A DNA stretch of 64,000 nt from Aliamphritea spongicola (GTDB taxonomy: Bacteria > Pseudomonadota > Gammaproteobacteria > Pseudomonadales > Balneatricaceae): NCBI GenBank assembly GCA_024347235.1, contig AP025283.1:1736001-1800000 (forward strand). Direction: 5' to 3'. Positions 38,356 through 54,719 of the stretch are shown in pieces (position 1 is the first letter of the stretch; each line of letters begins with the position of its first letter). Made by a program: the position numbers and the translations under genes. The notes under the pieces were generated by a model that saw nothing but the letters and a program-made list of their open reading frames with translations, had not been told where the DNA came from and made no database searches.

Positions 38356-38376
38356 TTTCGTGGAACTTTAGTGACA
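38356..38376 (+). repeat. attL: left copy of the 21-bp direct repeat
   Basis: TTTCGTGGAACTTTAGTGAC plus one A occurs here and again, identical over 21 bases, at 54699-54719 in the same direction. Preceding and following bases differ between the copies. It lies in the space upstream of phaC, not in a tRNA. Confidence 0.8.
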
Positions 38377-38489
38377 ATGGATAAATGAGCTTTATATCAG
38401 TTCAGATGGAAGCTGATAGAAACTGATGCCCTGAGTTGGCTGTAGGTTGACGTTTTTAAGTTCAGACCGGACATCAACAGACATCTGCA

Positions 38490-38510
38490 AAGTGGAGAGA
38501 ATGTGGAAAG
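38490..38510 (+). repeat. possible integrase arm-type site, left
   Basis: AAGTGGAGAG followed by two bases and TGTGGAAAG. The same 21-base block with two central mismatches lies at 54630-54650 at the other end of the element. Both are inside the element, 114 and 48 bases from the core repeats. Confidence 0.45.
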
Positions 38511-38901
38511 AAAAAATTTACGGTTTTCGCAAGTGCAGCACAGACTTAGATTCTTTATAAATTAGGTAAATAATTGCTGTCTATAGTATTTTTTGATTTG
38601 AGACATTCTGTATATCACCATGACCTATGCACACTAATCAGAATTTTGTTTAGAGGAGTATTGAGAATTATTGTCTTTATATTCAGTGAGTTACGTGATT
38701 TATAAATTAAAACTATTATAAGTTGTATTGATTAAAGTAAAAGATAATTACAAATTGTTAATCATTATAACTTATTGAAAACTAAAAAGAATGTGCTACA
38801 GGCAGTATTTAAGTTCTCAGAACCTGATTCGTTCATTTGAGTTAAATATTTTTTGTTGTTATACTTTTCCCCTGTCGATATTAATCAGAGGGATTACTGA
38901 T

Positions 38902-39832
38902 ATGAAACGACTAATTCTTTCTTTTCCATTATTACTTCTTCCTTCTATTGCAACAAGCTCTGATCAGAATGAGTTTTATGAGGCAAATTTCCAGCTTCAG
39001 ATGTTATCTGCAAAGTCTAGAAATATCTCAGCTTCTGAAAGCTATAGTGATTTCAGGAAAAATGTTTATAAAGAACCATTCGAAAATGGTGTGTTTATTG
39101 TTAACGGTGATACTCAATACCTAGCGAAGACATGCTAGAACGTTTTTATTATCAAGAAATAAAAGCTGGATGGCCAAGCTCTGACTATGGTGTAAAATTA
39201 ATAGTACATTCACCTGGAGGAAATACAGCTAAGTGGAGTGACGCAATAAAACTAAATTTAACTTATTGTGTAAGTAAAGAGTTTAAAAGCAGGTATGAGG
39301 AAGTTGTTAATAAAATGGCTTTAGCAGCTAAAGAATGGCAAGAGTCTGCGGGAGTTATATTTATACATAAGCCGGAGCATGATTTAAATTGTACTGCTAG
39401 TAATAAATCCGTTCTTTTCGATGTTAGGCCAGTCGATGTAAATAGGCAGTACCTTGCTAGGGCGTTTTTCCAAATTATTCTCGAGAATCGAGAAATCTAT
39501 TAATAGATGAGTCATCATTTAATTTAGATAGTAATCAGAAATTAAATCTGGTTGGAATATTAAGACATGAGCTTGGCCACGTTTTAGGTTTCCGCCATGA
39601 GCATACTAGAGCAGAATCCGGTACCTGCTTTGAAGATTCTGAATGGACTCCGCTAACAAGCTACGATCCGTTTTCTGTTATGCATTATCCTCAATGTAAT
39701 GGTCAAGGAGATTGGTCATTAAGTATCACAAAACAAGATGCAAAAGGAGCTTCTTGCTTATACGGTCCTCCTGTATCTTCACTTACTTCACTGACAGCTC
39801 AATCCACATTTAATCCAAATGATTGTATCTAA
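38902..39832 (+). CDS. secreted matrixin/metzincin zinc metalloprotease
   Basis: MKRLILSFPLLLLPSIATSS is a signal peptide. The zinc site HELGHVLGFRHEH (HEXXHXXGXXH) and the downstream SVMHYPQCN Met-turn define a metzincin of the matrixin or astacin side. The frame breaks near 39128 (one G missing) and near 39466 (one T missing). Joined length is 310 aa. The N-terminal domain before the protease, with DMLERFYYQEIKAGWPSS, is unlike known ones. Codon use is AT-rich, unlike the chromosome. It sits between attL and the phage core and is followed after 23 bases by a lipoprotein gene in the same direction, so the two are cargo and may act together. Confidence 0.85.
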
Positions 39833-39855
39833 TAGCTTATATTTAGGGAAAGAAT

Positions 39856-40412
39856 ATGAAAACAGTGTATATAAAAATAATAGCTGTACTTTCTTTGATT
39901 GTATTGACGGGATGTTCTGGAAAGTTATATACAAATCAAAATTTGTCGGAAGCTTGTATTAAAGATGAGAACAAGAAATGCATGGATAAATATGAAGGTG
40001 TTTTTGTATATCCTTGGAAGTCAGTGTTGACTACATATAAGCATGATAAAGTTCTTGATAATAAAGGTAATGTGATAATGTTCGCCGGAGGCCCTGATGG
40101 TAAAGCTTGTCTTCCTGTAGATATGCAAGAAACAGTTACTTATCCAGATTATGACTCTAAGTATTTGATTCAATATGACTCTGCTTTTTTGAAAGTTCTA
40201 ACCTTACTGTCAAATTAAACCCAAATGGTACTCTCAGTTCAGTTGGTGCTCAGAGTACACCTGGAGGTAAAAACCTTGTAGATAGTTTTACAGGGCTAGC
40301 TACAACAGTTAAAGCATTAAATCATGGAGCAATGATTAAAGGCTCAATGGTTAAGGCTGCTATTCCAACTTGCACTCACGGAAAAGCAGATCTAAAAATA
40401 ATTAAACAGTAA
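39856..40412 (+). CDS. cargo lipoprotein, unknown function
   Basis: The signal peptide MKTVYIKIIAVLSLIVLTGC ends in the lipobox LTGC. Two further Cys early in the mature part (ACIKDENKKCMDK) and one later (GKACLPVD), with TCTHGKAD near the end, suggest disulfide bonds. The frame breaks near 40192 and continues with LTVKLNPNGTLSSVG to a total of 185 aa. No family recognised. It is the downstream partner of the metalloprotease and ends at a shared terminator. Confidence 0.65.
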
Positions 40413-40424
40413 GTTTTTAAAAAT

Positions 40425-40449
40425 AGCCGGTGTTAATTACCGGCTTTTT
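40425..40449. terminator. bidirectional terminator between cargo lipoprotein and rep
   Basis: AGCCGGT / ACCGGCT around GTTAATT, with A-rich and T-rich flanks, can stop the lipoprotein transcript (plus) and the phage operon transcript (minus). Confidence 0.8.
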
Positions 40450-40465
40450 ATAAAAGCTATACTAA

Positions 40466-41720
40466 TTAAGATACTTTCGTTCTTAATCTTCTATCAATTA
40501 AACCATCCTCAATATACCGGATCAAATCAGAACGATTTAAACCTCTACTCCGAAAATACCCCATTAAATCAACATATAAGCCACTTCGCTTGAGGCACTT
40601 CAACGCATAGTGAGCGGGGAATTTGTTGCGTGCGTAGATCGATAGCAGGTTACCCAGGGCGATCGTGACATTCCGCTCATTGCCAACACCTGGCTTTTGT
40701 ATTCCCTACGGTATTCAAAACCTGTCTCGAACTGATCAAAACCGGCTTCCGTCATCAGCACAGTCCATGCAGGATGGATGAATCTTGAGTTGTAGTCGTA
40801 GCGGAAGTTATTCAGACCATAGGTCCATAAGCCCCCAGGTGTTTAATCACGTCTTCATAGGTATTGATGGTGGTTTGGTTGGCCAGTGCGAACTGGTGGA
40901 TTACTGAGTGTGAGAAGCGTACTTCTGCCCGCCAGACGGTTTCTTCCGGGTTGTAGAGCGGTTTCAGGAAGTCACTGGTTTTACTGTTCCAGCGGTCTTT
41001 GAAGTAATCCAGCTTGTCAGAGTAATGGGCTTCTTTGCTTTTGTTGTACAAGGCGAACTGGAGCGTTGAGGCAGCCCCGAATAGATAAGACTGGCCATGG
41101 CCGTAAACCGTGCAGATATCTGTGTCTAACTTGAGTTCACTGATGCCGGAGCGATCTGATACTCTACGCGACCTGCAGGTGATCTTCTCTACGAAGTGTT
41201 TTGGAGGTTCCCAGCCCTGATAGTCACACGCTAAGTGGATGGCGACACCTGCAGGGCTATATAAACTGTCCACAGAGACCATATCCGCATAGCTATTCAG
41301 CACGATCTGCAGGTCTTCAGCCGTATTATCAAAGATCATCTTCGGTGAGACTTCAATCTTGAGATGGGTACCAGATGCTTCTAACTTGGCGTACCGACTT
41401 TTTAGCAGGAGCACTAAGCCCAATTCCGCGTTTTGCAGGCTAAACTGATACCCCGATGCACCACCCCGTCTCAGCATCCATTGGTACCCGGCAAAAGTAT
41501 AGACAACCTTGCCGCCTGGTATCCCTTCCAGGGCCTGCTGCATGTCTTCAATGAGGGCTTCTTTTAGTCTCAGCTTGTACAACTGGCGAACGGTATCCAC
41601 TGAACTGTACAAAATGTTCATGGATGTCATATCAATGTGACCCGGTGAGTCGATAAATTGGCGACCATGGGTAGCTTCTTCAAAATTCTGATCAAAACGC
41701 TGAAAATGTTGTTTGCTCAT
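40466..41720 (-). CDS. inovirus replication initiation protein (RstA / gene II type)
   Basis: Fits the phage/plasmid replication protein family of filamentous phages, which nicks the origin for rolling-circle replication. MSKQHFQRFDQNFEEATHGR leads to IDMTSMNILYSSVD, LKIEVSPKMIFDN, TVWRAEVRFSHSVIHQFA and, after a frame break near 40826, WTYGLNNFRYDYNSRFIHPAW, a segment typical of the group. A second break near 40694 joins NERNVTIALGNLLSIYARNKF and the C-terminal YALKCLKRSG. About 418 aa. The assignment rests on these features and on its place next to Zot and coat genes. Confidence 0.75.
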
Positions 41721-41790
41721 TAGATGCCCCTAATGTGTATCGAGTTGTTTTAGGTTGTATCGGGAATGTTGGTTAGTTTTATCAAACGTG

Positions 41791-41955
41791 CTACACAGGC
41801 CGTTTCCGCGCCCCGCGTGCTGGCCTCAGGGATGCTGCGCACCCGTCGTCCAGCCCGCAGGTCGTGTAACAGGCTGTATGGCTGCCTGGCTGCAGCTGCG
41901 CAGTCGATTGCAGATACCTCAATAGCGCCTCATCCACAGGCCGGACGTTGTTCAT
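41791..41955 (-). CDS. small open frame coupled to zot, doubtful gene
   Basis: 54 codons beginning MNNVRPVDEALLRYLQSTAQ. The ATG overlaps the zot stop in ATGA, which suggests translational coupling. The sequence is GC-rich and basic at its end (RPARGARKRPV) with no family features. The region between zot and rep is where a phage intergenic region with the replication origin is expected, so this may be chance. Confidence 0.25.
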   Translation of the reverse strand: MNNVRPVDEALLRYLQSTAQLQPGSHTACYTTCGLDDGCAASLRPARGARKRPV

Positions 41956-42834
41956 ACGGGCGGCTCAATGAAGTAACGGCGTGTGGAAGGAAACAGCATA
42001 AATACGAGATAACCGATCTCGAATATCAGGGTGATTAGTGCCCGTTCTATCCGCTTCAGAATGGGTACCCGGGGCGGCAGCTTGTAACCGACTAGATGCC
42101 ATGGGGTTAACAGGCAATGGAGTCCAGCGTTTTCATGGTGGTTAGTGGCCCATGTGGGGAGTAATCAGGACTCAGTGTTTGGGCGGTGTTGTAGATCATT
42201 TTCACGGAGCTGGCGGAGTAGTTGCGGACTTCAGGACTAAGCCGTCTGTGGAGTAGCCATCTCTGAAGGTGACCCGGTGTATCTTAGGGAAGGTCAGGGC
42301 TTTGCCTGTAATGCGCCGGAACAGACCACCAAGAATAGGGATTGGGATACGGGACATGTCTCTGCAGTATCCGGTTTCCTGTGCCAGTCCTTCCCGGATC
42401 TGCTTATCCACCATGTCGATATGCTGAACAATAAACCATGCGTCCCAACCTTTTTCCGGAGCAAGACCAGGAACTGAATCATCCGGGTGCGTTCTTTACT
42501 GGCAAAGTTACGGGTGTTCAGGAACTGCGCGAGTTCATCTAACAGCAACAGTGAGTTTTGGTTTTCATCATAATCAGGACCAGGGCGATAGGAGCCATCC
42601 GGGCCAAGTACGAGGGTAGGATTCCCCAGGGAGCATTTCCAGATCTTCCGGTGTTGGATGGTCCGGTAAGCGGTAGATCCGGGTATCTTTATTGTATTTG
42701 TTAGAGAAGTGTTCCGGATACAGGTCGACATTGGTCGCGACCATCTTTTTCTTCTTCAGGCACACAGCAGCATGGCCAACAGCCACCAGTGTTTTACCTG
42801 TACCGAGTTTGCCGGTCACGAAGCGAAATTCCAT
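41952..42834 (-). CDS. zot: Zot-like phage assembly ATPase (gene I / pI)
   Basis: The Walker A GKLGTGKT opens the protein (MEFRFVTGKLGTGKTL), followed by LLLLDELAQFLNTR (Walker B) and GWDAWFIVQHIDMVDKQIRE. It drives assembly and extrusion of the filament through the inner membrane. The frame breaks near 42632, 42445, 42247 and 42110; joined, the protein has about 295 aa and ends with a membrane segment LITLIFEIGYLVFMLF and a short outside tail. It is 2 bases downstream of the pVI-like gene. The C-terminal part past 42107 depends on the last frame correction. Confidence 0.82.
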
Positions 42835-42836
42835 GT

Positions 42837-43208
42837 TCAGCCTCCTGGAAGTTGTGGTCGGGACAGGAAGCCTGATGCGTTGGAGGGCGGACTGACAAAC
42901 ATGCCGCCGTAGATCAGCATCAGGTGGTAATCCAAAACAGAGCGAGCAATGCGGGCCGTGATCAATGCGGCAATGCAGATTGGCGCCTGCGCCGGCACGA
43001 ACCACGACATGGCGATGTCGAGGTAGTCATTGGTAAAGAAGTTCAGGGTACCGATGGCGCCCTGTACCACGACGAAGAAGGTGGATACACCGGTGATGAT
43101 AGCGGCGATAAGCATCATCTTATAGGCGATATCCATACGGTGAGCAGAGGCGGCGGACGAGAAGCCGGCTTCAAACAGGTTACGCAGCAATTCAGATAGA
43201 CGGTTCAT
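42837..43208 (-). CDS. minor coat pVI-like membrane protein
   Basis: 123 aa, intact. Three hydrophobic segments: KMMLIAAIITGVSTFFVVVQ, a middle one near residue 65 and APICIAALITARIARSVLDY with LMLIYGGMF. Size, place between pIII and Zot, and topology match the pVI analogue of inoviruses (DUF5455-like), which caps the filament end. It is 2 bases after the pIII-like gene and 2 bases before zot. Confidence 0.7.
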   Translation of the reverse strand: MNRLSELLRNLFEAGFSSAASAHRMDIAYKMMLIAAIITGVSTFFVVVQGAIGTLNFFTNDYLDIAMSWFVPAQAPICIAALITARIARSVLDYHLMLIYGGMFVSPPSNASGFLSRPQLPGG

Positions 43209-43210
43209 AA

Positions 43211-44385
43211 CTATACTCCTGGTTTACGGTTGCCCAGGATCAGCCAGGCAATGCCAAACATGGTGATAACGGAGATAAACCAGCCGGTGATTTCTTTCAT
43301 TTCACCTAACTTGCGGCACTGAGATCTGGATGGAAACAGCACGGATGCTCCTTCCCAGTCGAAGGTAATGGTTCTGCAGGATGATGAGTAAGAGAGACCA
43401 AAGTCAGGCAGGCTAAAGTCAGGCAGGTCCGGAAGTGAGCCAAAGAACAAAGTTAGCGGGTTGTAGTCTTCCGGTCGGGTGTATTTATCATCGGTAGGCG
43501 CATCTACTTTTACTTCTGTTTCATCGATCTTAATTGGATCGACAACCGTAACCTTTTGGATGTTTTCTTCTGTAGCCGATTCTCTGCCCGCTTCTTCAAC
43601 AGTAGCTGATTCCAAGCCTTCAGCGAGTTTGATGCGATCAGCTTCAGCCTGTAACGCTTCAGCCAACTCAGGCGTAATCAACGGAGATCCTGCTAAATCT
43701 TCAAAGAACTGACGCCGCTGAGCAGGGGTTAGTTGATTAAACGCTTCAATCATAAGGTCGTTTTGCACATCCAAAGGAAGCGGTTCACCAGGCACCATAG
43801 GCACTGTTTCGTCTCTGCAAACAGAGTAATTACGTGGCGGGTTAGTGCAGGAAAGTTTTACTGCCTGGACATATTTAGAATTCGTACCGCGGCTACACCA
43901 TGTTCCACCGGCAGAGGCTAGCCCATAAACAGAGCCTGCTGCACAGGCTTCAGACGCTGTTTTTCCTCTTAGAGGTGGTAAGCCATAGACTGGTGCTTCC
44001 CAGAAATATCCGGCGGTGTATCCCGGATCAGGTTGTTCTTGCTCAGTGATCTGCCCCTTAACTCATTAATGACGTACCCTGCAGCAGCGGCAGCAGCAAG
44101 TGCAGCGGCTTTTAAAGCCTGTTGGGCAGGGTTACCACGCTTGGTCATCTCAAGTAGTTTCTTAGGGTTGTAGGTCACCCGCTCAGTTTTGAAGGTTTCT
44201 TTGCCGGAAGGAAACCGGACACGACTTGTGGAGTAGTCCACCTTAATGTTACCCCGTGAGTCGACATCCACGCCGGTGACTTGCTTCGGCCGAATCGTAA
44301 CGGATGTATCCTGTGCAAATACGGATACGGGAGAAAGAAGCGAGAGCAATGAAAGCAGTAATAGTAGTTTGCGCATATCAGTCAT
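43211..44385 (-). CDS. pIII-like minor coat / attachment protein
   Basis: About 391 aa. MTDMRKLLLLLSLLSLLSPVSVFA is a signal peptide. The N-terminal half has a Cys-containing region (SEACAAGSVYGLASAGGTWCSRG, CTNPPRNYSVCRDE), then an acidic Pro/Asp-rich linker (SLPDLPDFSLPDFGL), a domain with Cys in SSSCRT and SQCRK, and a C-terminal helix WFISVITMFGIAWLILGNRK that anchors it. This is the architecture of pIII, which binds the host receptor and ends assembly. The frame breaks near 44000. It lies just upstream of the pVI-like gene. Confidence 0.75.
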
Positions 44386-44459
44386 CCCTGATCCTGATCA
44401 CGGGCCAGCCGCCAGAAGATTACGGCGATCAGAAACCCAATAATGAATAACGAACTCAT
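44382..44459 (-). CDS. 25-aa membrane peptide, possible minor coat protein
   Basis: MSSLFIIGFLIAVIFWRLAR is a single hydrophobic helix with a charged tail. Its stop overlaps the start of the pIII-like gene in ATGA. In size and place it resembles pVII or pIX of Ff phages (32-33 aa), which cap the leading filament end. Missed by gene finders because of length. Confidence 0.55.
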   Translation of the reverse strand: MSSLFIIGFLIAVIFWRLARDQDQG

Positions 44460-44483
44460 AACGACACCTCACAAAATCCAGAG

Positions 44484-44517
44484 GTAAAAAGGGGCGCGGA
44501 TAGCCCGAGCCCCTTTG
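44484..44517 (-). terminator. strong terminator after the major coat gene
   Basis: On the minus strand AAAGGGGCTCGGGC / GCGCCCCTTTTT forms a long GC-rich stem with a T tract, 20 bases past the pVIII stop. In Ff phages a terminator in the same place raises coat transcript over the genes behind it. Confidence 0.85.
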
Positions 44518-44536
44518 AAAGCCGGGCGTAACAGAT

Positions 44537-44802
44537 TTAGATCTGTGAGCCGAAGCGCTTGAACAGTTTGAAGATAACCAGCGCCCCGAAGAGCGTGATC
44601 ACTACCGGCCACACCAGATCAGCCAGATCCAGACCATCCTGTTGAATCGCAGCCAGCTGTGTACCGATCGCTGCCGGTAACGCCGCTGCAGCTTCCTGCA
44701 TCGTCATTCCCATCGCGATAAAACCAGCCACCACTGAGCGGACTTTTTGTTAGCAACCAGAGCGCTAACCGCGGCATTTTGCTTCTTCACAAAATTAGGC
44801 AT
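44537..44802 (-). CDS. major coat protein (pVIII-like)
   Basis: A long signal peptide (MPNFVKKQNAAVSALVANKK..GFIAMGMTMQEAAA) is followed by a short acidic start (IGTQLAAIQQDGLDLADL), the membrane helix VWPVVITLFGALVIF and a basic end KLFKRFGSQI, as in fd pVIII with its KLFKKF tail. One base is missing near 44735. Joined precursor is 88 aa, mature about 45-50 aa. A perfect AGGAGG stands before ATG 44802. High expression is expected from its ribosome site and terminator. Confidence 0.85.
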
Positions 44803-44813
44803 AGGAGCCTCCT

Positions 44814-44930
44814 TTACAGTTTTTCTAACCATTGTTTGAAGTACGTTATAAGGACAGCACTGCCCCAGCCGAGTCCGAACGCCCCAAGAATGTGGCCGCT
44901 GTACTCAGCGAGAAATTGATCTAACGCCAA
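44814..44930 (-). CDS. 38-aa membrane peptide upstream of the coat gene
   Basis: Reading from TTG 44930 gives LALDQFLAEYSGHILGAFGL then WGSAVLITYFKQWLEKL, one membrane helix with a basic end. A GGGAGG ribosome site lies 8 bases upstream. It ends 11 bases before the pVIII start. Probably a minor coat (pVII/pIX-like) or pVIII variant. Confidence 0.5.
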   Translation of the reverse strand: MALDQFLAEYSGHILGAFGLGWGSAVLITYFKQWLEKL

Positions 44931-44943
44931 ACCAACCTCCCAT

Positions 44944-45138
44944 TCATCTCAACGAGCCAGCCACGAAGCCTAAGCAGTACGCGAGGCCTAACGTGGATTG
45001 CACGATGATTGAATTTGTTTCCTCAGAGACTTCGGCAAAAATCTCAGCGCTTTCGGCCTGAGTGAGCGCTAAAGCGGGATCACTGAAGGCCAACACGGCA
45101 AAGATGCTGCCGAAGAAACCGAGGAGGAAATATTTCAT
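44944..45138 (-). CDS. 64-aa membrane protein, putative phage coat or assembly protein
   Basis: MKYFLLGFFGSIFAVLAFSDPALA is a signal peptide or anchor, followed by an acidic stretch (ESAEIFAEVSEETNS) and a second hydrophobic segment IIVQSTLGLAYCLGFVAGSL. The layout signal-acidic-helix is like a pVIII-type coat precursor. Intact, and in line with the phage operon. Confidence 0.55.
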   Translation of the reverse strand: MKYFLLGFFGSIFAVLAFSDPALALTQAESAEIFAEVSEETNSIIVQSTLGLAYCLGFVAGSLR

Positions 45139-45162
45139 AGGGATAACCTAAGCAACGTCTGC

Positions 45163-45474
45163 TTAAGACTGTGCAGGGCGCTGCTTAGCTGCCGCTTCAG
45201 TCTTTGGCTTGATCGACACCAGCTTGAAGGCCATCTTTTGCTGAGCGCCTGCTACGGGCTTGGCAACAATGTCGCATTCGCACGGCAGCACGTTACGCAG
45301 CTGTTCGACCACGGTGTAATCAGCGGTCATTTTCATGATCTCCAGACCGCACACGTCCGGGTTTTCACCGTCACTAGGTTGGGTCAGGAAGATGGATGCA
45401 CCCTGGTTGCCGTCCATGCTGTAACGCTTTGCCTGAATGACGGTGCCGGTAAAATTCATGTTCATAGTGTTCAC
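45163..45474 (-). CDS. probable phage ssDNA-binding protein (gene V analogue)
   Basis: 103 aa, intact. MNFTGTVIQAKRYSMDGNQGASIFLTQPS is a beta-rich OB-fold-like start, followed by ENPDVCGLEIMKMTADYTVVEQLRNVLP and a Lys/Gln-rich end. In inoviruses a protein of about 100 aa in this place, before the coat genes, coats ssDNA before packaging. The assignment rests on size, fold impression and gene order, not on a recognised motif. Confidence 0.55.
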   Translation of the reverse strand: MNTMNMNFTGTVIQAKRYSMDGNQGASIFLTQPSDGENPDVCGLEIMKMTADYTVVEQLRNVLPCECDIVAKPVAGAQQKMAFKLVSIKPKTEAAAKQRPAQS

Positions 45475-45896
45475 CTGTAAATGTTGGGTTTGCGCAGCGC
45501 AGAGCGCGGCAAGTCTTCTACGTTGAGTAATTCAGTGAAATCCCTTTGCGCAGGTTCACTGGGTTTGAAATCGTGTTTAAAGATCACGCCACAAGGGCAC
45601 GCAAGTAGGGTGGCAGTAGAGTTATAAGCACTAACCCGATCGCAACGTTTGCAATAATGAAAAACGTCTCGAACATCGCTGCCTTCAGTGACTGGGGAGT
45701 AGGTCCGAAAATCACAAAACTCACGAAATTGCTGAGCAACGTTAAGTGATAGATCAAGATCGATGTGGCCAGGAGTGTCAGCCAGTACTACAGATCGAGT
45801 TCTGCAGGTGCATTCTCCATTAGTGCCTCCACATAGCAGGCAGTAGCCACGTTCAGCAGCGGAGAGGATGTCTGAGCGTTTCATCCGTGTGTGCAT
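45471..45896 (-). CDS. Cys-rich zinc-binding protein of the phage core
   Basis: 141 aa, intact. Two Cys clusters: CLLCGGTNGECTC near residue 19 and CKRCD..CPCG near residues 84-101, the second like a zinc ribbon. Between them lies a helical acidic part (DLDLSLNVAQQFREFCDF). Unknown family. The stop overlaps the start of the ssDNA-binding protein gene by 4 bases, so the two are co-translated and perhaps work together on DNA. Confidence 0.55.
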   Translation of the reverse strand: MHTRMKRSDILSAAERGYCLLCGGTNGECTCRTRSVVLADTPGHIDLDLSLNVAQQFREFCDFRTYSPVTEGSDVRDVFHYCKRCDRVSAYNSTATLLACPCGVIFKHDFKPSEPAQRDFTELLNVEDLPRSALRKPNIYR

Positions 45897-46024
45897 GTCG
45901 ACTCCCTGTCGTTACGTTGTTCTTTATGAATGCTAATGCATTCGTGATGGCCTCTTTGCCGGCCGGGCAGGCTATCCGTCTGGAGTGGAATGCTTACGGG
46001 GCATTCAAATCCATCCAGACAGCT

Positions 46025-46243
46025 TTATACATGGCCGTGACCCATGCAGTTTTCGCAGAGGGTGGAATAGCCGGCAGCATCAGTGATATCGCCGAAGCCC
46101 TCGCATTCAGTGCATTCGTTGCCTTCTTCTGTGGCATAAGGCTTGAAAACTTGTCCGGTGCCATCGCAATACATGCAATCATTTCCGTATTCCACCGTTC
46201 CGGTGCCACTGCAGCAGCTGCAGTCACTGGCTTCCATGTTCAT
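46025..46243 (-). CDS. stand-alone DnaJ-type zinc-finger protein
   Basis: 72 aa, intact, from ATG 46243 (AAGGA ribosome site). It has four CXXCXGXG-type repeats: CSCCSGTGTV, CMYCDGTGQV, CTECEGFGDI and CENCMGHGHV. This is the zinc-binding domain of DnaJ without J or substrate domains. Such proteins bind two zinc ions and can act as thiol or folding helpers. It sits in the phage operon. A longer open frame upstream has no family features, so 46243 is preferred. Confidence 0.7.
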   Translation of the reverse strand: MNMEASDCSCCSGTGTVEYGNDCMYCDGTGQVFKPYATEEGNECTECEGFGDITDAAGYSTLCENCMGHGHV

Positions 46244-46253
46244 ATGTGTGTCC

Positions 46254-46403
46254 TTACATGCCGTAAGTAACCCGCTCATCTCCGGCATGAGTAAGTGAGC
46301 GGGGGCAGTTTTTACACGGATGCCAGCCGTTAAATTATCGTGGAGAGGGCATTCCCCACGCCCCAGCACGTAACGAACGCTTGTTACCTGCGAAGGCTTT
46401 CAT
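46254..46403 (-). other. small open frame with an in-frame stop, doubtful
   Basis: ATG 46401-46403 overlaps the stop of the preceding gene (ATGA) and gives MKAFAGNKRSLRAGAWGMPS plus two residues before TAA at 46335. The same frame continues to another stop at 46254 with WHPCKNCPRSLTHAGDERV. It could be one 50-aa Cys-containing protein with a base error, or chance. Confidence 0.25.
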
Positions 46404-46828
46404 CGTTCAGTTACCTGCATTTGCGGAGAGGGTTGATAGCTCGTGAAGAGCTTTAAATTCTGACGCACAATGTTTAGTTGTCGGTTCCATTGCTGCAGCT
46501 GCTTGTCCGTTTCTTCAAAGGTGGCTTTGCCTGAAATGATGTCTTCAAAGAACAGGTAAGAAGCCATTTGCCGGTGATGAATACGGGCAGAAGTACGTTT
46601 AATCGCTGCGAAAACAGCAAAAGTAGCAAGCTGGGTGTAATTAGAGAGCGGCCCACATATGAGTAAGCGAACTCCCTGGCCTCCGAGAAATTCAAGGTCG
46701 ATTTGTGCACCTTGTTTATTCAGGCAGAACACTTCAGCAGATAGTTCGGAGAACATAACTGCTAACTGACTGACCTGATTCGTAGACGGATGTATTTCTG
46801 GAATTGTTGGGACTGTTAACTGATCCAT
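46400..46828 (-). CDS. phage-core protein of unknown function
   Basis: 142 aa, intact, from MDQLTVPTIPEIHPSTNQV. It has a beta-rich middle (AQIDLEFLGGQGVRLLICGP) and a helical end (ATFEETDKQLQQWNRQLNIVRQNL) with coiled-coil character. No family recognised. The start overlaps the end of the HTH gene by 13 bases, so both are in the same operon. May be a DNA-binding or regulatory partner. Confidence 0.55.
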   Translation of the reverse strand: MDQLTVPTIPEIHPSTNQVSQLAVMFSELSAEVFCLNKQGAQIDLEFLGGQGVRLLICGPLSNYTQLATFAVFAAIKRTSARIHHRQMASYLFFEDIISGKATFEETDKQLQQWNRQLNIVRQNLKLFTSYQPSPQMQVTER

Positions 46829-47091
46829 GTCTTAGCCTCCCGTTCACAGTGTTGGTAGAGTGCAACCATGTTGATATAGCGGGTAGGGCGCTTTCCCGGC
46901 ATGCGGGGCGCGAGTACAACGACGGGCAGTTCACCACGGTCCATAAGGGTGGTAATGGTATTTTTAGCAATGCCGGTGAGTTCGGCGAATTTAACAGGGC
47001 GGAGTAGTGGAGAACCAACGCGTTTTAATTGCTCGAAAAGCGCATGATTCATCACGGTATCCATACCGTTTGTTTGAGATTGAGCGTCCAT
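46816..47091 (-). CDS. helix-turn-helix regulator of the phage operon
   Basis: 91 aa, intact. VKFAELTGIAKNTITTLMDRGELPVVVLAPRMPGKRPTRYINM reads as a MerR/excisionase-like winged helix: a helix-turn-helix followed by a turn and the basic PGKRPTRYI wing. First gene of the minus-strand phage operon, divergent from the repressor at 47204. It likely activates or represses the phage promoter, or serves as excisionase. Start may also be the internal ATG at 47064. Confidence 0.65.
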   Translation of the reverse strand: MDAQSQTNGMDTVMNHALFEQLKRVGSPLLRPVKFAELTGIAKNTITTLMDRGELPVVVLAPRMPGKRPTRYINMVALYQHCEREAKTWIS

Positions 47092-47136
47092 GCCTATATC
47101 CTCAACTTTAGCCAGATTGAGTCTTTATATAACGTG

Positions 47137-47175
47137 AGAATATATTGCGATAAATATTCTAGAGATACAAGTATC
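47137..47175. promoter_or_regulatory. operator-like inverted repeats in the divergent control region
   Basis: Between the HTH gene and the repressor lie GATACAAGTATC (47164-47175, perfect palindrome with two central bases) and the inverted repeat GAATAT..ATATTC near 47137-47159. Both are likely sites for the flanking regulators; this is inferred from position and symmetry. Confidence 0.5.
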
Positions 47176-47203
47176 GTAAGAATAAATCTCGATATTAATT
47201 TTT

Positions 47204-47490
47204 ATGAAACGAGAAAATTTAATAAAATTAATAGATTATGTTGGAAGCTCCCAAGAAAGAGATTTACAGAGTTTGAAGATAAAACGGGGATTAACAAGGA
47301 TACTCTAAAGCAGTTCTATCATGGTAAACAAAAACTAAACCATGAAAACATCAATCAAATACATGAAGCATTTCCTGAATATGTATATTGGTTAGCAACA
47401 GGGAAGACTATTCCAGAAGCAGGGCAAATAAGTCCGGAGCTGGACAAGATCGTAGAGACCTACGAAGACACAGGGATGGATACACAGTAG
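47204..47490 (+). CDS. phage-type repressor with helix-turn-helix
   Basis: MKRENLIKLIDYVGSSQERDLQEF joins after one base near 47268 to EDKTGINKDTLKQFYHGKQKL, an XRE-like helix-turn-helix. The second half HEAFPEYVYWLATGKTIPEAGQISPELDKIV is typical of small phage repressors that check prophage induction. 95 aa when joined. Divergent from the phage operon, with palindromes in the shared promoter. Probably the lysogeny control gene of the element. Confidence 0.7.
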
Positions 47491-47560
47491 CGCAAAGGAT
47501 ACGGGAACGCTGGCTATCCTAGCCAACGGGGCGCAACACAGGGACTCAGGGAGTGAAGTC

Positions 47561-47647
47561 ATGGTAATCGATGGTAATAATTTCTATAAGAAGCAAATAG
47601 CAAGAAAAATAGATCGATTTACAACATGGTTTATAAATAATGTCTGA
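47561..47647 (+). CDS. 28-aa small open frame, doubtful
   Basis: MVIDGNNFYKKQIARKIDRF then TTWFINNV, basic, with GGAG 8 bases upstream of the ATG. Its stop overlaps the start of the next gene by 8 bases, consistent with a leader peptide. No other support. Confidence 0.3.
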   Translation: MVIDGNNFYKKQIARKIDRFTTWFINNV

Positions 47648-48328
47648 TATAAATAATCAAAACTCTATTAGTAGAGTTATGTCAATCATTCCTTTCCTAA
47701 GTCTGTTATTTATATTTTCAAGTATTCTACACATAGTAGTATACTGGTATCACTTTAATATAACCCCTTTATCTTATATTGGAATAAGTGATGTTCTTTC
47801 TTATTCTGAAACATTTCTGCTATTTGTTTTTATTACATTAGCTTTTGTAATGGCTAATGAAGTATTTATTAGTGATAAACATAGTTCAACAATACCTAAT
47901 GGCAATATTAAAAAATAATTTTACTTTTTATTGTTGTAATTGCTGTTTGTATGCTGCTTAGTGTTAAATATAAACTATTTACAGCAGTTGTATATGCTAT
48001 AGCTTTATTACCAATTAGATATTTAATAAATTCAAATATTCTTAAAGAAATCTCAAATAAAAATATGATAAGGACATTTATCATATCATCTTTAGTTATA
48101 TTACCTACACATGCTATTAATTGGGGAATTCATTCCTCTAGACAGGTTTATGAAAGTGAAAGTGATTTTATTAAGTTTGAAAGTACAGAGTGTTATGCTG
48201 GATGTAGATTTATAGGTAAGCTTGGAGGCTATATTGGAGTGCTCAATTATAAAAATGAAACAGTGATGTATAGAGCAGATACGATTGGAAAAATTACTTT
48301 TATGGTAAATAGAATTGAGTTTGATTAA
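47640..48328 (+). CDS. cargo membrane protein, unknown function
   Basis: About 229 aa with five hydrophobic segments: SIIPFLSLLFIFSSILHIVV, TFLLFVFITLAFVMA, IILLFIVVIAVCMLL, LFTAVVYAIALLPI and IRTFIISSLVILPTHAI. A C-terminal soluble part (FESTECYAGCRFIGKLGGYI) has two Cys. The frame breaks near 47917 (A7 read as A6). Very AT-rich. No family recognised. It lies between the repressor and a minus-strand cargo gene. Confidence 0.6.
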
Positions 48329-48360
48329 ACCAGATAAAACACAGTAAGTTGTTTATATGT

Positions 48361-48934
48361 TTAATTTTTTATTTTCAATTCCTGAAAATAAGATAATAAT
48401 TCAGGATTGTCTGACTTTTCTAAAGCATACAAAACAGAAATTATTGCGAGATTATAAGATAAAGTAAGCTGTTGAATAAGTTCTTCTTCAGAAAATGATT
48501 CTTTTAGTTCATTTTCTGAAAACCTAGAATTTATTTGTTCAAAGCCTCCATGTGTATATCCATTCAACTTTTTAGAAAGAGTACCGCTTAAATTTGAATA
48601 TAAATCAGTATTACTTTTAGTATTCAAACTCTGTAACATGTCATAAAGCCTTTTTTGACTTTATAATTAGTAAATTCATATAACTCTTTTCAGTAGCGCA
48701 CTGATCAAAATAAAGAGATCTAATTAGTGCTTCATATTGGCATCTTAAAAGAGCAACAGCAGAAGCACTCATATTGTAATTGATTAAAGTGATTATCGAG
48801 CCAAAATGTTCTAGTGACAAATGAAGAAGGCCAAAAGATATTTTCGACCTTAAACCATCTGGAATAACAATTCCATTCATTCTAACGTCAATTTCTGTCA
48901 TTAAGGTCTTTGATTTTTTTAGCAAAGAAATCAT
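48361..48934 (-). CDS. helical cargo protein, DUF5677/DUF6988-like
   Basis: About 190 aa, nearly all helix. The middle HFGSIITLINYNMSASAVALLRCQYEALIRSLYFDQCAT resembles the core helix pair of DUF5677/DUF6988-type proteins (ALLRxxYEALIRxLY pattern), which are often linked to HEPN-like folds. The frame changes near 48647 (one base extra or two missing in the A run), giving DMLQSLNTKSNTDLYSNLSG after it. It lies 84 bases downstream of the TPR-HEPN gene on the same strand and may belong to the same module. Confidence 0.5.
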
Positions 48935-49017
48935 AAATAATTATCACTTATATAAATATAATTAAATCTACAGACAATACTAGAGGTAGTCTTTTTTTGT
49001 AATAATTCTAGGTATTG

Positions 49018-50572
49018 TTAAATCGTTTTCGAGCTATTTTTTTCTAAACTAGATTTCTCTCTTACAGTGAATACAAATGAAAATATTGCTGATCTTGTTA
49101 TGCTTAACAACTGCTCTAAGTGACTTATAAACTCTTCTTCACTAATAAACCTGATATTTTTAATTAAACTATATGAGTTATATATATCATCTAAGCATGA
49201 AGAGCGATAAACTACTAAAAACTTGTGTTCTAAATCATTTCTCCATGATTTATAAAAAGATAGCTCGCCGTTTTTTTATCATTTAAATCTGTTGCAATAC
49301 TATATAAAGACAATAACCCTGGAGATTTTATTTTATTAAATTTTTCTCTCCTGTTACCATTATCTAATTGCCAGAAGCTAGGAAAGTATACGAGACCATT
49401 AGGCGGGTGTATATCATATAAATCACATATAGCAGCCCCTATCCTATCTAATATCCCAAAACAAACTCTGAATGAAGTTCTTAGCTTTTCAACATCAATA
49501 CCTAAAATCTCATTATTTAATAATTCAGAAAAGCAGGATTCATGCATTTCAGAATAATTAGATTCCTTCTCAATATATTCATAATACAATTTTCTTGAAA
49601 AAGAAAACTCAGATTTTAGCCTATTTAAAACCATCTCCATAGGCACAATAAAGTCTCCTTTCAAACCGGTCTTTGAAGGAATGGTTAAGTCGTCTCTGGC
49701 ACTTGCTAAACAAGGGCAATATAATGAATGCTCAGACAAGGTTAAATTATTTTTCAAATAAAACCTTCTTGAATTAGATAAAGATTCAAACTCGTTTTTT
49801 GTTTTTATATGGTCACTATCATCAGGATCTATTTTTTACTTTTAAGTATGTCATTTAGCTTAGCGTCGTTGTACTTTAGTTTTAAATTTAATGACTCTAT
49901 CAACGTTTGATAAAGTTGTCCTGAGTTTATTGCATTTTTATACCCCAGGCTTACTTGATGCATTAACTCTATAGTAAATGTATTAGATATTTGATTGAGA
50001 AGAATCAAAGAATCTGATCGACCAATCCAAGCGTTAGGGTGCTGACTATTTAATTTTATAGCTTTGTCATAGCAGGAAATTGCTTCCGTTACTCTAAATT
50101 GTTTGTCTAAACAAATTCCTAAATTAACTAAATACTCATAAGGTAATTTCTCTTCTTCTAATGATAAAACTATAGATTTCCAAAGTAGGTTTTTGATCTC
50201 GACGAGTTTTTCAATAGATGAAAATCTAATTCAAAAGAGTTTTTGTGTTAAGTAAGTTCGACTTACCATTACTTAAGTTATAATAATATGCGTGTTCATA
50301 AGAAATTTTTAAAATATCGTCCTTAAATTTATGAAGTAACCCTACTCCAAATATTGAAGATCTTTTCTTAAACTTTGAATTAAAAGACCCGATATCTATA
50401 AATAATGCTGCTATGTTATTTATTGAAGCATAAAAATATCATTTCTTTTATTGTTTTTTATTCGCTTATATATTCTATACGTAGATTTGAATGAAGATTC
50501 AATAAATCCTCTATCTATATCTTTACTTATAAAGTCAAATTCTTCATCAATGCTTAAATAACTTTCATCCAT
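49018..50572 (-). CDS. TPR-HEPN protein (LA2681-like HEPN domain)
   Basis: About 519 aa. The N-terminal half (MDESYLSIDEEFDFISKDID onward) holds TPR units, clearest in YLVNLGICLDKQFRVTEAIS-CYDKAIKLNSQHPNAWIGRS. The C-terminal part has a HEPN domain with the RX4H motif in FYKSWRNDLEHKFLVVYRSS, the signature of HEPN ribonucleases. TPR plus this HEPN type is the LA2681-like arrangement predicted to act in defence or stress. The frame breaks near 50430, 50230, 49838 and 49250, so exact length is uncertain. Start 50572 lies 11 bases after the membrane protein gene. Confidence 0.7.
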
Positions 50573-50583
50573 GTTTTTCACTA

Positions 50584-51127
50584 TCAATGCCCGCTTGATT
50601 CTATACTTATTAATTTATCATTGTTTATAAGAATCCTAGTTTCATTTGAGAGTATTAAAGTTTTATTATTTAAGTGTCTTGTGACAACCATTCCTTTAAT
50701 ATTAATTAATTCATCCCCTTTCATAAAACTTACAGTTGATACTTTATTATTGGATATCACGTTATATGACTCGCCTTCATCTATACCTGAAATTAGAGAG
50801 ACCACAGAAAAAAACATAACCAAGAAAAACAGCTCTATAAATAGCTTTAACTTGAGTCCTTCAATTTTAGTCAATGTAACTGTTATTGATGTAACTATAA
50901 AAACATAAAGTGATAATTGGATCAACAAAAACGATTTGTAGTGCACTAATGAACCCTTGTGTAGAAATATAGTATTTATTATAAGCCATTAAATTGGCTG
51001 GTATATCTAAACCAATGAAATATCCTTTTAAATAAGACCAGCCAATTATATAAAGCGATACGGAAACCAAGGCAGTAAATAAAACCATGATTTTAAGTAG
51101 TAATATAGAGTCTGATTTTGAATTCAT
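50584..51127 (-). CDS. cargo membrane protein upstream of TPR-HEPN
   Basis: About 180 aa. Four hydrophobic segments: ILLLKIMVLFTALVSVSLYIIGWSYL, QGFISALQIVFVDPIITL, LYVFIVTSITVTL and LFIELFFLVMFFSVVSLISGI, then a soluble domain of about 60 residues with strands (VVTRHLNNKTLILSNETRIL). The frame changes near 50910. Its stop is 11 bases before the TPR-HEPN start, so the two are surely co-transcribed. It could be the membrane sensor or anchor for the HEPN protein. Family unknown. Confidence 0.6.
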
Positions 51128-51193
51128 TATTAAACAACCGTAAAATATGATGATTAATGATATATTTGCTGTTAATAAAAGCTAAATTACTAA

Positions 51194-51538
51194 TTAATAC
51201 CCAGTCGATATATATCTTGCATACGCCTTACATGCTTTAGCCATTTCAGTTTTAGATGTATCTGTTCGAAACTGATTATGTGCAACTTTCCATTCCTCAC
51301 AGGCTTTTCGTAGCTTATGTGCTGTTGATGTTTTCTTTCGCTCACTTTCTAAACGTATCTGCTGCTGACGCTGTTTTTCTGTCTGTTCAGCTATAGCTGC
51401 ATTTCTTTCTTGCTTCAGTTGATTTAAAGCCTGTGAGGCCTGATACGCCATATACTGACTGGTAGCGTAGTTTGAGAGCAGATTGCCAGCGGCAACGCCT
51501 AAGGTGATTATGAAAAATAAAGTCAGGTATTTAGTCAC
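51194..51538 (-). CDS. small coiled-coil protein with N-terminal anchor
   Basis: 114 aa, intact. MTKYLTLFFIITLGVAAGNL is a membrane anchor or signal peptide. Then a long charged helix rich in Gln, Lys, Arg and Glu (QALNQLKQERNAAIAEQTEK) and two Cys in KACEEWKVAHNQF and MAKACKAYARY. Such small anchored coiled-coil proteins are seen in phages and conjugative elements. Less AT-rich than its neighbours. Function unknown. Confidence 0.55.
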   Translation of the reverse strand: MTKYLTLFFIITLGVAAGNLLSNYATSQYMAYQASQALNQLKQERNAAIAEQTEKQRQQQIRLESERKKTSTAHKLRKACEEWKVAHNQFRTDTSKTEMAKACKAYARYISTGY

Positions 51539-51656
51539 AATGAAAGTCCTTATTTATCGTGCTGCTTAACACGTATTTTCCTTATAAATAATTCTTCACC
51601 TTTATTTACATTAATCTTTACTATATGCGGGCTGTTTTAAATGGTATCCCAAGTTA

Positions 51657-52430
51657 TTACGACACTAAATTTTCATTTGAGCCTGATTTTACCGCTGAGA
51701 ATATTGTTTCAAATACCTTGTCTATAATCGGATCAAGCTCTGAAAATGACTCTTTATATGAATCTTGGCTAGTATTTTTTATTAGCTTTTTACATTTTCG
51801 ATAAGTAAAGTAACCACAGTTTTTGGATAATAATATGACATCATCGTCAAGTTTTTAGATAGAGATGAAAGAAAATCGATATACTGTGATTTTGATAAGT
51901 CTTCCACAAGCGAGCCTACCCACTCGGGTGATTCATTATCTAATACTGTAGAAGGGATTTCATCAGTATAGCGTTTACTGACTTGTGCAATCATTTCTAA
52001 TTTTTCTTGGCCACGTAAATAGAATGCGAGTACAGGGTTATCTGTACTAAGCTCCGATAACGCTTCTTCAAATGAAGGAACTAATTTTGAATCAATATCA
52101 ATACTATTGGCTTCATAAAGGTTATCTAAGTGACCTTTAATGATTGGAGATATCATCGTAGCAATCATTTGTTTATCAAAAGGCTTGTATTTTTTTCAAT
52201 TCTTTCAAATGTATGGTCTAAATAGTCTTCAAGTATCTGATCTGTGTTAACAATTGAGTTGCTGATTGCATGTCTCATCTCTAAAAGAAGATATAATACT
52301 TTTCTAGCACTTCTTTTACTTTGAGATCTGTTTTTAGAAAGTAACCAGCACCAGCTAATATTGATGAAAAGCAAATGCCACCAAGTGCAATAAAAGCGGC
52401 TATGATTTTTGCGTCCATTCCCCAAATCAT
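51657..52430 (-). CDS. membrane-anchored helical cargo protein B
   Basis: About 258 aa. MIWGMDAKIIAAFIALGGIC with a following SSILAGAGYFL forms one membrane helix; the rest is helical: LEDYLDHTFERIEKN, SFEEALSELSTDNPVLAFYLRGQEKLEMIAQVSKRY and LIENVKKLIKNTSQD. The frame breaks near 52283, 52192 and 51786, one base each. It follows the larger coiled-coil membrane protein gene after 18 bases. The pair is next to the integrase, a usual place for variable defence genes. Family unknown. Confidence 0.55.
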
Positions 52431-52448
52431 AATTACAACTCCTTTTGT

Positions 52449-53530
52449 TTATTCTTTACTTTTCGTCTTCAGTAGTGATGTTACTGAGTTAATAATTGTA
52501 TTTGTAGTTTCGGTGTTGGATTTGGCTCTCTCTAATTCTACAGTTGTCTGTCCTTTTCAAGAACAAAATTTCTTTCAGTTTTCAATAGGCTTTCTACTGA
52601 CTTATTAATAGAGGCCAGGTTTTTAGTCAAGTAAGAAGTTTCCAAAGCTATTAACTTGGATTCGAGATTAGTTAGTTCATTTTGAAAATACTTTATTTCT
52701 GACAATCCATCTTTATAAAGTCTAAGGAAAAAGTATGCAAAAATTTCAAGAAAAATAACTAATAGGATTCTTGGTAGTAATGGTAAAAATAAATTTCTTA
52801 AGAACTTGTTATTTGACTCATTGTTTTCTGAGGCTAGTTCTTTTAAAAGTGTAGATGTATCAATAATATCTACAGTATCCCATAACAAATATAGTCCGCC
52901 AGCAGTAATTGACATTCCTATCATCAAGTTAATATTAGACCTAAGCCTTAAATCTGAAATTTCTCTGTATATTCGGTTTTTTATTCCTAGAATTGATGAT
53001 CTTAATTTTTCTTGTTCAGTATTTTTGTTAATTCATCTTTAAATGCTTTAGATTCATTGGTGAAAATGTTTTTGATTGCATCAATTGTAGCATTGTCTAC
53101 AATCCTTGATAAAATATCTTCCTTTTCTTGCGGGGTGATATTGCTAGTGTTTTTAGTTTTATTATTTCTGAGTTAAGGTTTTCAATTTTTATTTTTAAGG
53201 AAGAGGTATCATAGTCTTTTGATGAGGTGTTTGTTTTAGATTTTGAAAAAGTGCAGTTGCAACTTTTGCGGGATTGCCTGATTGTAAATAGTTTAAAAAT
53301 AGTAAAATAATAGATAGGAATGTGAATATGAAAAATAAAACCTTAGAATATCCCATCAATAACTCAAACTGTGGATCATTTAACCCAGAATTGATCCATG
53401 CTTTATAGAAAACCTTATCTGAAAATACTAAGTCATTTAGAAGAAATAAAAACAAACTGATTGTTATTGAAAGTACAGTAGCATTTCTCATTATGCTATT
53501 TCGAATAGAGTTAGACACGTGCATATCCAT
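52449..53530 (-). CDS. membrane coiled-coil cargo protein A
   Basis: About 361 aa. N-terminal helices ATVLSITISLFLFLLNDLVF and VLFFIFTFLSIILLFLNYL, a charged helical part (LKIKIENLNSEIIKL, TPQEKEDILSRIVD), a second pair of membrane helices (MIGMSITAGGLYLLWDTVDI and LFLPLLPRILLVIFLEIFAYFFL) and a long C-terminal coiled coil (FQNELTNLESKLIALETSYL onward). The frame breaks near 53228, 53155, 53020 and 52555, one base each. Its plan, membrane helices with cytoplasmic coiled coils, is seen in some phage-defence sensors, but no known family is matched. Start may be the third ATG-like codon (MHVSNSIRN). Confidence 0.55.
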
Positions 53531-53616
53531 TATTTGTAAAAGTCATATTTTGTCGTAACAGGCAGTGAGCCATTTAACACATTTTTTGGTATAAAACAGT
53601 ATCATCTTGGTATCAG

Positions 53617-54653
53617 TTGCTAGATTTGCCAGGGAAAGGCTATGACTATCAAAAGAAAGGTTCTGCCTGGTTCGTGGATGTGCGGCCAGAGGGCAGAGCA
53701 GGGAAGCGTGTTACCCGTAAATTCACTACAAAGGCTGAAGCTGTTCGGTTTGAGTCTTTTGTCATTTCACAGGCTGCTGCGAATAAAGCCTGGAATCCTT
53801 CCCAGCAAGATAAACGTCGTTTATCTGAGCTGATTGAGCTGTGGAATGAAGGGCATGCTAAAACGCTGTCTAGCGGGGCTGTTCGTTATGCTCTGCTGGT
53901 CAGGTGGTGTAAGGATCTGAATGACCCTGTGGCGGCTTCTGTGCGGCCTGAGCATTTAATTCGTTGGCGGTCTGAGCGATTGGCCGTGTTAAAGGCAACG
54001 ACGGTTAACATCGAGCTGCAGGCGGTTAAGAGTTTGTTTAACTGGTTACAGAAGGCTCAGCTGGTTGAGTTTCCTAATCCTGCTGCACATATTCAGGCGA
54101 TTAAGGTTGCTGAAGTAGAGCGGCCGTTTTTGTCTCAGGCTGAAGTGGCGCATTTTTATTCGCAACTCTCTTCGGCTCCAGGGAGGACATCGCAGTTATC
54201 GCGCAGACATGTTTGGAAACAGGGGCACGCTGGAGTGAGGTGGAAAAGATCCAGTGGGAGCATGTCCGTGAGGATCGTCTGATTTTTACGAATACCAAGA
54301 GTAAGAAGACGCGTACAGTGCCGATCCGGCCTGAGTTGTATGTGTTGCTTTGTGGTTGTGGTAACCGTTCTGCGAAGCGTTTATTCGGGAGCAGGGCAGA
54401 AACTGCCCGAAAGTGGCTAAACCGCTTATGGGACTTACCAGACGGTATTTCGACGCACATTCTTCGCCATACCTTCGCTAGTCACTTTGTGATGGCAGGG
54501 GGCAATATTCTGACGCTGCAGCGAATTCTCGGGCATAGCAAGATTGATATGACTATGCGGTATGCTCACCTGGCGCCATCTCACTTACAGGAGGTGCTTT
54601 CCCTTAACCCAGGTGTGCTACTTGAGAAAAAGTGGAGAGTTTGTGGAAAGTGA
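53617..54653 (+). CDS. int: tyrosine recombinase (integrase) of the element
   Basis: 345 aa when one base near 54186 is restored. N-terminal SAM-like core-binding domain (LSELIELWNEGHAKTLSSGA), then the catalytic set: Arg in ETGARWSEVEKI, His and Arg in HILRHTFASHF, His in LGHSKIDMTM and the nucleophile Tyr in RYAHLAP. It inserts and excises the element at the 21-bp repeats, 46 bases past its stop. The start is TTG 53617 (LLDLPGKGYDYQKKGSAWF); no ATG in frame lies near. The last codons are inside the right arm-type repeat. Confidence 0.92.
54630..54650 (+). repeat. possible integrase arm-type site, right
   Basis: Second copy of the AAGTGGAGAG-NN-TGTGGAAAG block found at 38490, with 19 of 21 bases identical. 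It overlaps the last codons of the integrase and is 48 bases from attR. Confidence 0.45.
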
Positions 54654-54698
54654 TTTTGTGAGGGATCAAATTTGATATTGGATTCAGGGGCTTAGATT

Positions 54699-54719
54699 TT
54701 TCGTGGAACTTTAGTGACA
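54699..54719 (+). repeat. attR: right copy of the 21-bp direct repeat
   Basis: Identical to the left copy (38356-38376) over 21 bases. It stands between the integrase stop and the glutaredoxin-like gene. Confidence 0.8.

Follow-up and report, generated by a model that had tools for sequence, protein, structure and literature searches.

An inovirus prophage of Aliamphritea spongicola carries, in a cargo slot whose content changes between sister prophages, a gene for a TPR protein with a C-terminal LA2681-type HEPN domain, and we consider it fairly probable that this protein is an abortive-infection effector, predicted to cut RNA, whose partners vary. The family of the protein, its RX4H motif, the slot that holds the gene, the variability of this slot between sisters and the defence neighbourhoods of some relatives support this reading. 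Throughout, the window is the stretch of 64,000 nucleotides that was analysed, and all positions are those of the window unless stated otherwise.

Results

The TPR-HEPN gene is the middle one of three co-directional genes on the minus strand, preceded by a gene for a small membrane protein and followed by a DUF6988-like gene (Table 1). Positions 48361-51127, proposed in the initial annotation as a candidate defence module, are fitting bounds for this three-gene cluster, and the element that carries it is far bigger. The stop codon of the membrane gene occupies 50584-50586 and the ATG of the TPR-HEPN gene lies at 50572, leaving the 11-base gap that had been claimed, and 45 bases separate the TPR-HEPN gene from the DUF6988 gene. 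That the three genes stand side by side thus held, whereas intact reading frames did not, each gene being split into at least two frames in this assembly; the integrase of the prophage is likewise spread over more than one frame. An intact HEPN protein, P0110 (532 aa), is present in the protein database and comes from another contig of 1,426,136 bases; the genome holding the window is one contig of 4,991,656 bases. P0110 is identical to three of the window pieces at 131/131, 83/83 and 189/194 residues, the mismatches of the last piece sitting at its broken end. Given this identity, the frame breaks resemble indels of the assembly, and the completeness rating of the window's genome, 78% compared with 93-100% in 15 of 16 congeners (75% in the remaining one), is as indel errors would give; from these sequences we infer that the frame breaks arose in the assembly. 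A cluster truly broken in the strain and inactive would also account for three genes and an integrase each lying in more than one frame, but the intact copy on the 1,426,136-base contig and the low completeness of the assembly make such decay very improbable indeed. P0110 aligns poorly with its relatives around residues 66-86 and may therefore itself hold a fault there.

Table 1. The prophage, its attachment repeats, its inovirus genes and its cargo, in window positions.
Feature	Position	Strand	Basis or remark
Inovirus prophage, about 16.4 kb	38356-54719		Repeats, empty sites, inovirus genes
Left attachment repeat, 21 bp	38356-38376		Identical to 54699-54719
Inovirus core gene, PHROG 1159 (function unassigned)	40815-41729	-	286 bits
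pI-type morphogenesis (Zot family) gene, two frames	42297-43026	-	phrog_1675 71.6 bits, PF05707 pieces
Minor virion protein, DUF5455-like	42840-43208	-	24.9 bits (cut-off 25, just under); phrog_1944 35.5 bits
Major coat protein, Gp8 type	44537-44734	-	PF19199 39.6 bits (cut-off 24.6); phrog_1646
Cox-like excisionase/repressor	46816-47091	-	phrog_575 35 bits
Putative regulator bordering the cargo slot	47029-47490	+	No Pfam match; 3' DNA common to L047 and L048
DUF6988 gene	48361-48934	-	Two frames: 48641-48934 and 48361-48639
TPR-HEPN (LA2681) gene	about 48980-50572	-	Broken frames
Orphan small membrane protein gene	50584-51127	-	Two frames, 3-4 predicted TM segments
Small one-TM gene	51194-51538	-	Common to sister prophage L083, 84% DNA identity over 381 bases
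Further AT-rich cargo genes, broken frames, some TM segments	51782-53530	-	No assigned function
Tyrosine integrase, two frames	53617-54650	+	PF24624, PF00589
Right attachment repeat, 21 bp	54699-54719		Just outside the integrase

Profile searches, run on the separate open pieces of the broken genes, bore out what had been said of the TPR-HEPN protein from its letters. The LA2681 profile (PF18733) matched at 49233-49835 with 89.3 bits and at 49027-49275 with 37.0 bits (cut-off 27), the TPR_1 profile matched at 49832-50230 with 29.5 bits (cut-off 27.8), and the motif RNDLEH, an RX4H form of the RX4-6H class, is present in the second HEPN piece (49027-49275). The gene is, judged by its sequence, a plain member of the LA2681 family, for which Table 1 of PMC3710099, a source accessible in part, gives the same retained motif and TPR fusion. 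The arginine, asparagine, glutamate and histidine of RNDLEH are invariant in 36/36 aligned proteins, the query and 35 matches picked by hand from the best 120 of the 437 that a protein search returned at E values up to 0.001. The accessible text of PMC3710099 reports that the histidine is required in KEN, RloC and PrrC and the arginine in KEN and PrrC. In the same alignment one histidine and four cysteines of P0110 (residues 283, 287, 289, 372 and 384, including LYCxC) are invariant in 36/36 proteins, and this set is a possible metal site.

A structure model of the full-length protein (pLDDT 87.5, pTM 0.90) places TPR helices up to about residue 246, the part that matched TPR structures (1-246), and long helices after it. 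RNDLEH occupies residues 446-451, at the end of the helix 441-451 and ahead of the helix 480-515; in HEPN domains the motif lies at the end of helix 3, as the accessible part of PMC3710099 describes. The matches to known structures were confined to the TPR part: the 50 Foldseek rows were mostly TPR and other repeat proteins, the VIA-align rows covered residues 1-246 of the model, and the profile matches to PDB sequences fell at positions 126-236. None of the PADLOC models matched P0110 at 0.001, and the label DinG given to a HEPN piece, at only 10.6 bits, was judged to be noise. Our search of the open-licence literature found neither a test nor a shown activity of an LA2681 protein.

The inovirus setting, also part of the initial annotation, was borne out by matches to coat, pI-type and other phage genes. 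The ends of the prophage are set by the two 21-bp repeats and by empty sites in congeners: in G001 (L072) the flanks join with an overlap of exactly the 21 bases, and in G002 (L074) they join across a diverged copy of the repeat. A third congener, G012, carries at this same site DNA related to the integrase end (91% identity over 1060 bases). A tRNA as attachment site was rejected, the window holding no tRNA. The open frame of the PHROG 1159 gene is shorter than in the sister copy, which has 421 aa. At the AT-rich left end of the prophage (39111-39829, plus strand) a broken metalloprotease-like gene adjoins a lipoprotein-like gene; the former matched Astacin with 28.3 bits (cut-off 22.5) and Matrixin with 24.5 bits (cut-off 24).

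Comparison with sister prophages showed that the stretch between regulator and integrase is a slot that changes its content. The inovirus core has a GC content of about 50% and the stretch at 47.0-53.5 kb one of 27-37%. A second inovirus prophage in the window's own genome (G000:C1:603000-622000; L047, L053), which by eye lies beside an smpB-like gene, resembles the first in about 5 kb of core (92% identical DNA) and in the end of the regulator, and has none of its cargo. The sister prophage in G002 likewise has core parts (70-91% identity) and the regulator but not the cargo, and tblastn of the cargo protein pieces against L047, L048, L053 and L054 gave no match. In G012 the integrase is retained, as is the small gene at 51194-51538, among differing surrounding genes, only part of its cargo being visible as its contig starts 0.8 kb left of the small gene. 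Since these three sisters, one of them partly visible, differ in content, the slot is variable. A genome profile search found LA2681 nowhere else in the window's genome and in neither G002 nor G012. The cargo of the L047/L053 prophage is also AT-rich and includes a piece of a KAP NTPase (25.9 bits, cut-off 20) and that of another sister an Hcp-like gene (59.5 bits, cut-off 23.5); PADLOC at 0.001 labelled 0/7 sister cargo pieces, so that the view of a defence slot rests on the cargo described here and the one KAP NTPase piece. By eye, the G002 sister has a partial second integrase within its cargo (L048 2173-2430, L054 7347-8315), a hint at how the slot may get reshuffled.

Three pieces of the further cargo genes at 51782-53530 had no Pfam match and no PADLOC match at 0.001, and a PADLOC label 2TM for the piece 53198-53530 (11.5 bits) was judged noise. 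The cargo also holds a second membrane gene (47640-48325, plus strand, in two frames) of similar layout to the one upstream of the TPR-HEPN gene, with TM segments followed by a soluble end; kinship of the two was rejected, their pieces giving no BLAST match to each other.

LA2681 genes are rare in whole genomes. Counting the window's genome, the profile was found in 1/57 relatives, in 2/369 genomes of the class (one over the cut-off) and in 4/398 of the phylum; around Rheinheimera it was found in 8/394 genomes of the order (seven over the cut-off) and 7/325 of the family, all these samples overlapping. A tblastn search with P0110 gave no match among 50,697 phage records and one among 72,556 plasmid records, and two peptide patterns searched against IMG/VR returned one relative, on a viral contig. 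A gene similar at the DNA level to that of the IMG/VR relative is present in 23/5426 E. coli genomes.

The neighbourhoods of the relatives were read at 22 loci, five from E. coli (of 23 E. coli matches) and 17 from elsewhere. This count leaves out L004 and L012, which have weak LA2681 matches below the cut-off and with a stop, L029, whose coordinates are those of L011, and L001, L002, L005 and L013, which repeat counted loci or the window. A defence role, as initially suggested, gained support from both sets. Outside E. coli, six of the 17 loci lie close to a known defence or restriction gene, a raw count and not an enrichment: the HEPN gene lies beside qatABCD by annotation (L014), behind an EruA remnant (L015), beside SduA (L023), close to Gabija and to a CBASS cyclase accompanied by a Cap15-type effector (L025), no more than 5 kb from a cytosine methylase and Vsr (L030), or overlaps a type IIG enzyme (L031). 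At the other 11 loci no defence gene was seen on reading by eye with a profile scan of some genes. One relative (L024) lies in a P2-like prophage with GPO, Ogr and integrase matches, and, by eye, phage lysis genes seemingly adjoin L064, Tn7-type genes lie near L065 and L026 falls in an smpB-side island.

At all five E. coli loci read, of the 23 (L016-L020), the HEPN gene starts 12 bases after eruA, a relative or a remnant. The upstream gene of L016, where the HEPN gene lies at position 10001 of the locus, encodes a NACHT antiphage protein that NCBIfam identifies as EruA (NF058535, 1127.6 bits, cut-off 1000). In L017 and L018 the EruA copies are without their N-terminus and fall under the NCBIfam cut-off; the upstream protein of L019 is 66% identical to that of L016 over its length, that of L018 is 99.9% identical to the C-terminal part of that of L019, and that of L020 has the same protein accession as that of L019, the HEPN gene of L020 being annotated in two pieces. 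These arrangements make an EruA-family NACHT protein and an LA2681 HEPN protein a candidate two-gene system in E. coli. Of the E. coli HEPN proteins, two were scanned and matched no NCBIfam model, and in the open-licence literature we found no source for antiphage EruA/HyoA, no EruA-LA2681 pair and no inovirus LA2681 gene; the EruA in the accessible text of PMC12839154 is a different protein.

We then considered whether the membrane gene, the HEPN gene and the DUF6988 gene form one membrane-coupled system. Here the membrane protein, on sensing that a phage adsorbs or DNA enters, would activate the HEPN RNase, and DUF6988 would be a third component. Their shared strand, the gaps of 11 and 45 bases and the common AT-rich cargo favour such a system, as does the E. 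coli HEPN gene, which sits at a like distance behind a different partner. The membrane protein itself was confirmed; its 'four-helix' description is uncertain, since a simple hydropathy scan predicts a pair of segments for either frame piece and two of these four are overlapping bases read in two frames, leaving 3 to 4 TM segments. Its pieces match no Pfam or NCBIfam model, and a PADLOC label PglX (15.7 bits) was judged noise. The third gene proved DUF6988-like as claimed, PF22491 matching at 48641-48934 with 45.8 bits (cut-off 27) and, under the cut-off, at 48364-48639 with 21.6 bits. Its first piece also matched PADLOC PDC-S52 with 62.3 bits, a model for which our literature search found no paper; DUF6988 has been newly implicated in defence through a tested system (PMC13092281, accessible in part).

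Neither gene accompanies LA2681 elsewhere. The membrane pieces match 0/22 LA2681 loci (tblastn, E 0.01), and by eye no small multi-TM gene stands 200 bases or less ahead of the HEPN gene at any of the 22; the survey for a conserved pair, as far as it reaches, found no homologue of the membrane gene beside other LA2681 genes, and the coupling proposed initially is not supported by it. L003 and L066, the nearest relatives whose neighbours are known (64% identical over the HEPN piece), are also without the membrane gene. A 120-aa membrane piece found no relative in the protein search, where nine candidates shared words with it and none scored, nor in the plasmids or 114 other genomes; as each of these searches used a piece of the protein, distant relatives may be missed. 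DUF6988 as a constant partner was rejected on the same comparison, its pieces matching 0/22 loci (tblastn, E 0.01), and DUF6988 genes occur in the congeners G005 and G008, which are without an LA2681 match. In G008 (L050 3863-5183) the DUF6988 gene overlaps, by eye, the end of a resolvase-like gene. We therefore hold a single membrane-coupled system to be unlikely: the membrane gene is probably not an obligatory partner of the HEPN protein. Both this gene and the DUF6988 gene probably ride separately as cargo within the transcription unit of the HEPN gene, and each may be an exclusion or defence gene of its own.

The same neighbourhoods bear on a toxin-antitoxin or addiction module, in which a HEPN toxin restrained by DUF6988 or by the membrane protein would ensure that the inovirus persists in the population. 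Many toxins are found among HEPN proteins (PMC3710099), and inoviruses carry toxin-antitoxin pairs (PMC6813254), as the accessible parts of both papers state. However, no fixed neighbour recurs across the 22 loci, many relatives look solitary, and a Pfam search of the neighbouring pieces at E 0.05 found neither a nucleotidyltransferase nor a known antitoxin, a test weakened by the fragmented genes; we regard such a module as quite improbable.

Discussion

Together, the data favour an abortive-infection effector that works with exchangeable partners. The TPR part may sense the infecting phage or bind a sensor, upon which the HEPN part would dimerise and cut RNA, as is predicted for it, and growth of the cell would stop before the rival phage multiplies; the trigger, the arrest and the benefit to the inovirus are all presumed steps. 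The partner is likely exchangeable, being a NACHT protein of the EruA family in E. coli and none evident at many loci.

A system of this kind is already known, and the filamentous carrier is what is unusual. For the LA2681 family, the accessible text of PMC3710099 describes the TPR architecture and an operon that includes TPR and gives no phage carriage, whereas the gene in the window, which has the profile match over the cut-off, the RX4H motif and the TPR fusion in common with the family, is borne by an inovirus. The HEPN proteins of the E. coli EruA loci are 56-57% identical to the HEPN piece of the window, where, however, no NACHT gene is present and the small membrane gene takes its place.

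Other mobile elements offer parallels, here drawn from the accessible parts of the papers cited. The KKP module of Pf filamentous prophages is likewise defence cargo among inovirus accessory genes and is likewise missing from a sister phage whose core is similar, but it consists of kinases and a phosphatase, whereas the window has a predicted HEPN RNase (PMC11341870). The Thermus phages IN93 and Tsatsa have a variable region by a regulator and an integrase; this region includes genes for HEPN and for membrane proteins or lipoproteins and has been proposed to serve defence; unlike the phage described here, they are not inoviruses, and their HEPN protein has 126 aa (PMC11437467). Interchangeable defence genes in a prophage slot are also found in the antiviral hotspots of P2 and P4, a tailed phage and a satellite, in contrast to the filamentous phage of the window (PMC9122126). 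Inovirus superinfection-exclusion genes block other phages, as did 2/10 of the proteins tested, but these are hypothetical proteins, and the word HEPN does not occur in the accessible text (PMC6813254).

It is doubtful, to our judgement, that this inovirus lineage has a membrane-triggered RNase unique to it, in which the orphan protein as inner-membrane sensor, the TPR-HEPN protein and DUF6988 would detect a rival's entry at the envelope and arrest the cell. If this were true, LA2681 would be a universal effector that plugs into varied sensors, a NACHT protein in E. coli and a membrane protein here.

The prediction of LA2681 HEPN proteins from genomes dates from 2013, and the E. coli eruA-HEPN pair, 12 bases apart, makes it testable. 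If the contents of the slot are defence genes, small filamentous phages would carry exchangeable defence, as P2 and P4 do.
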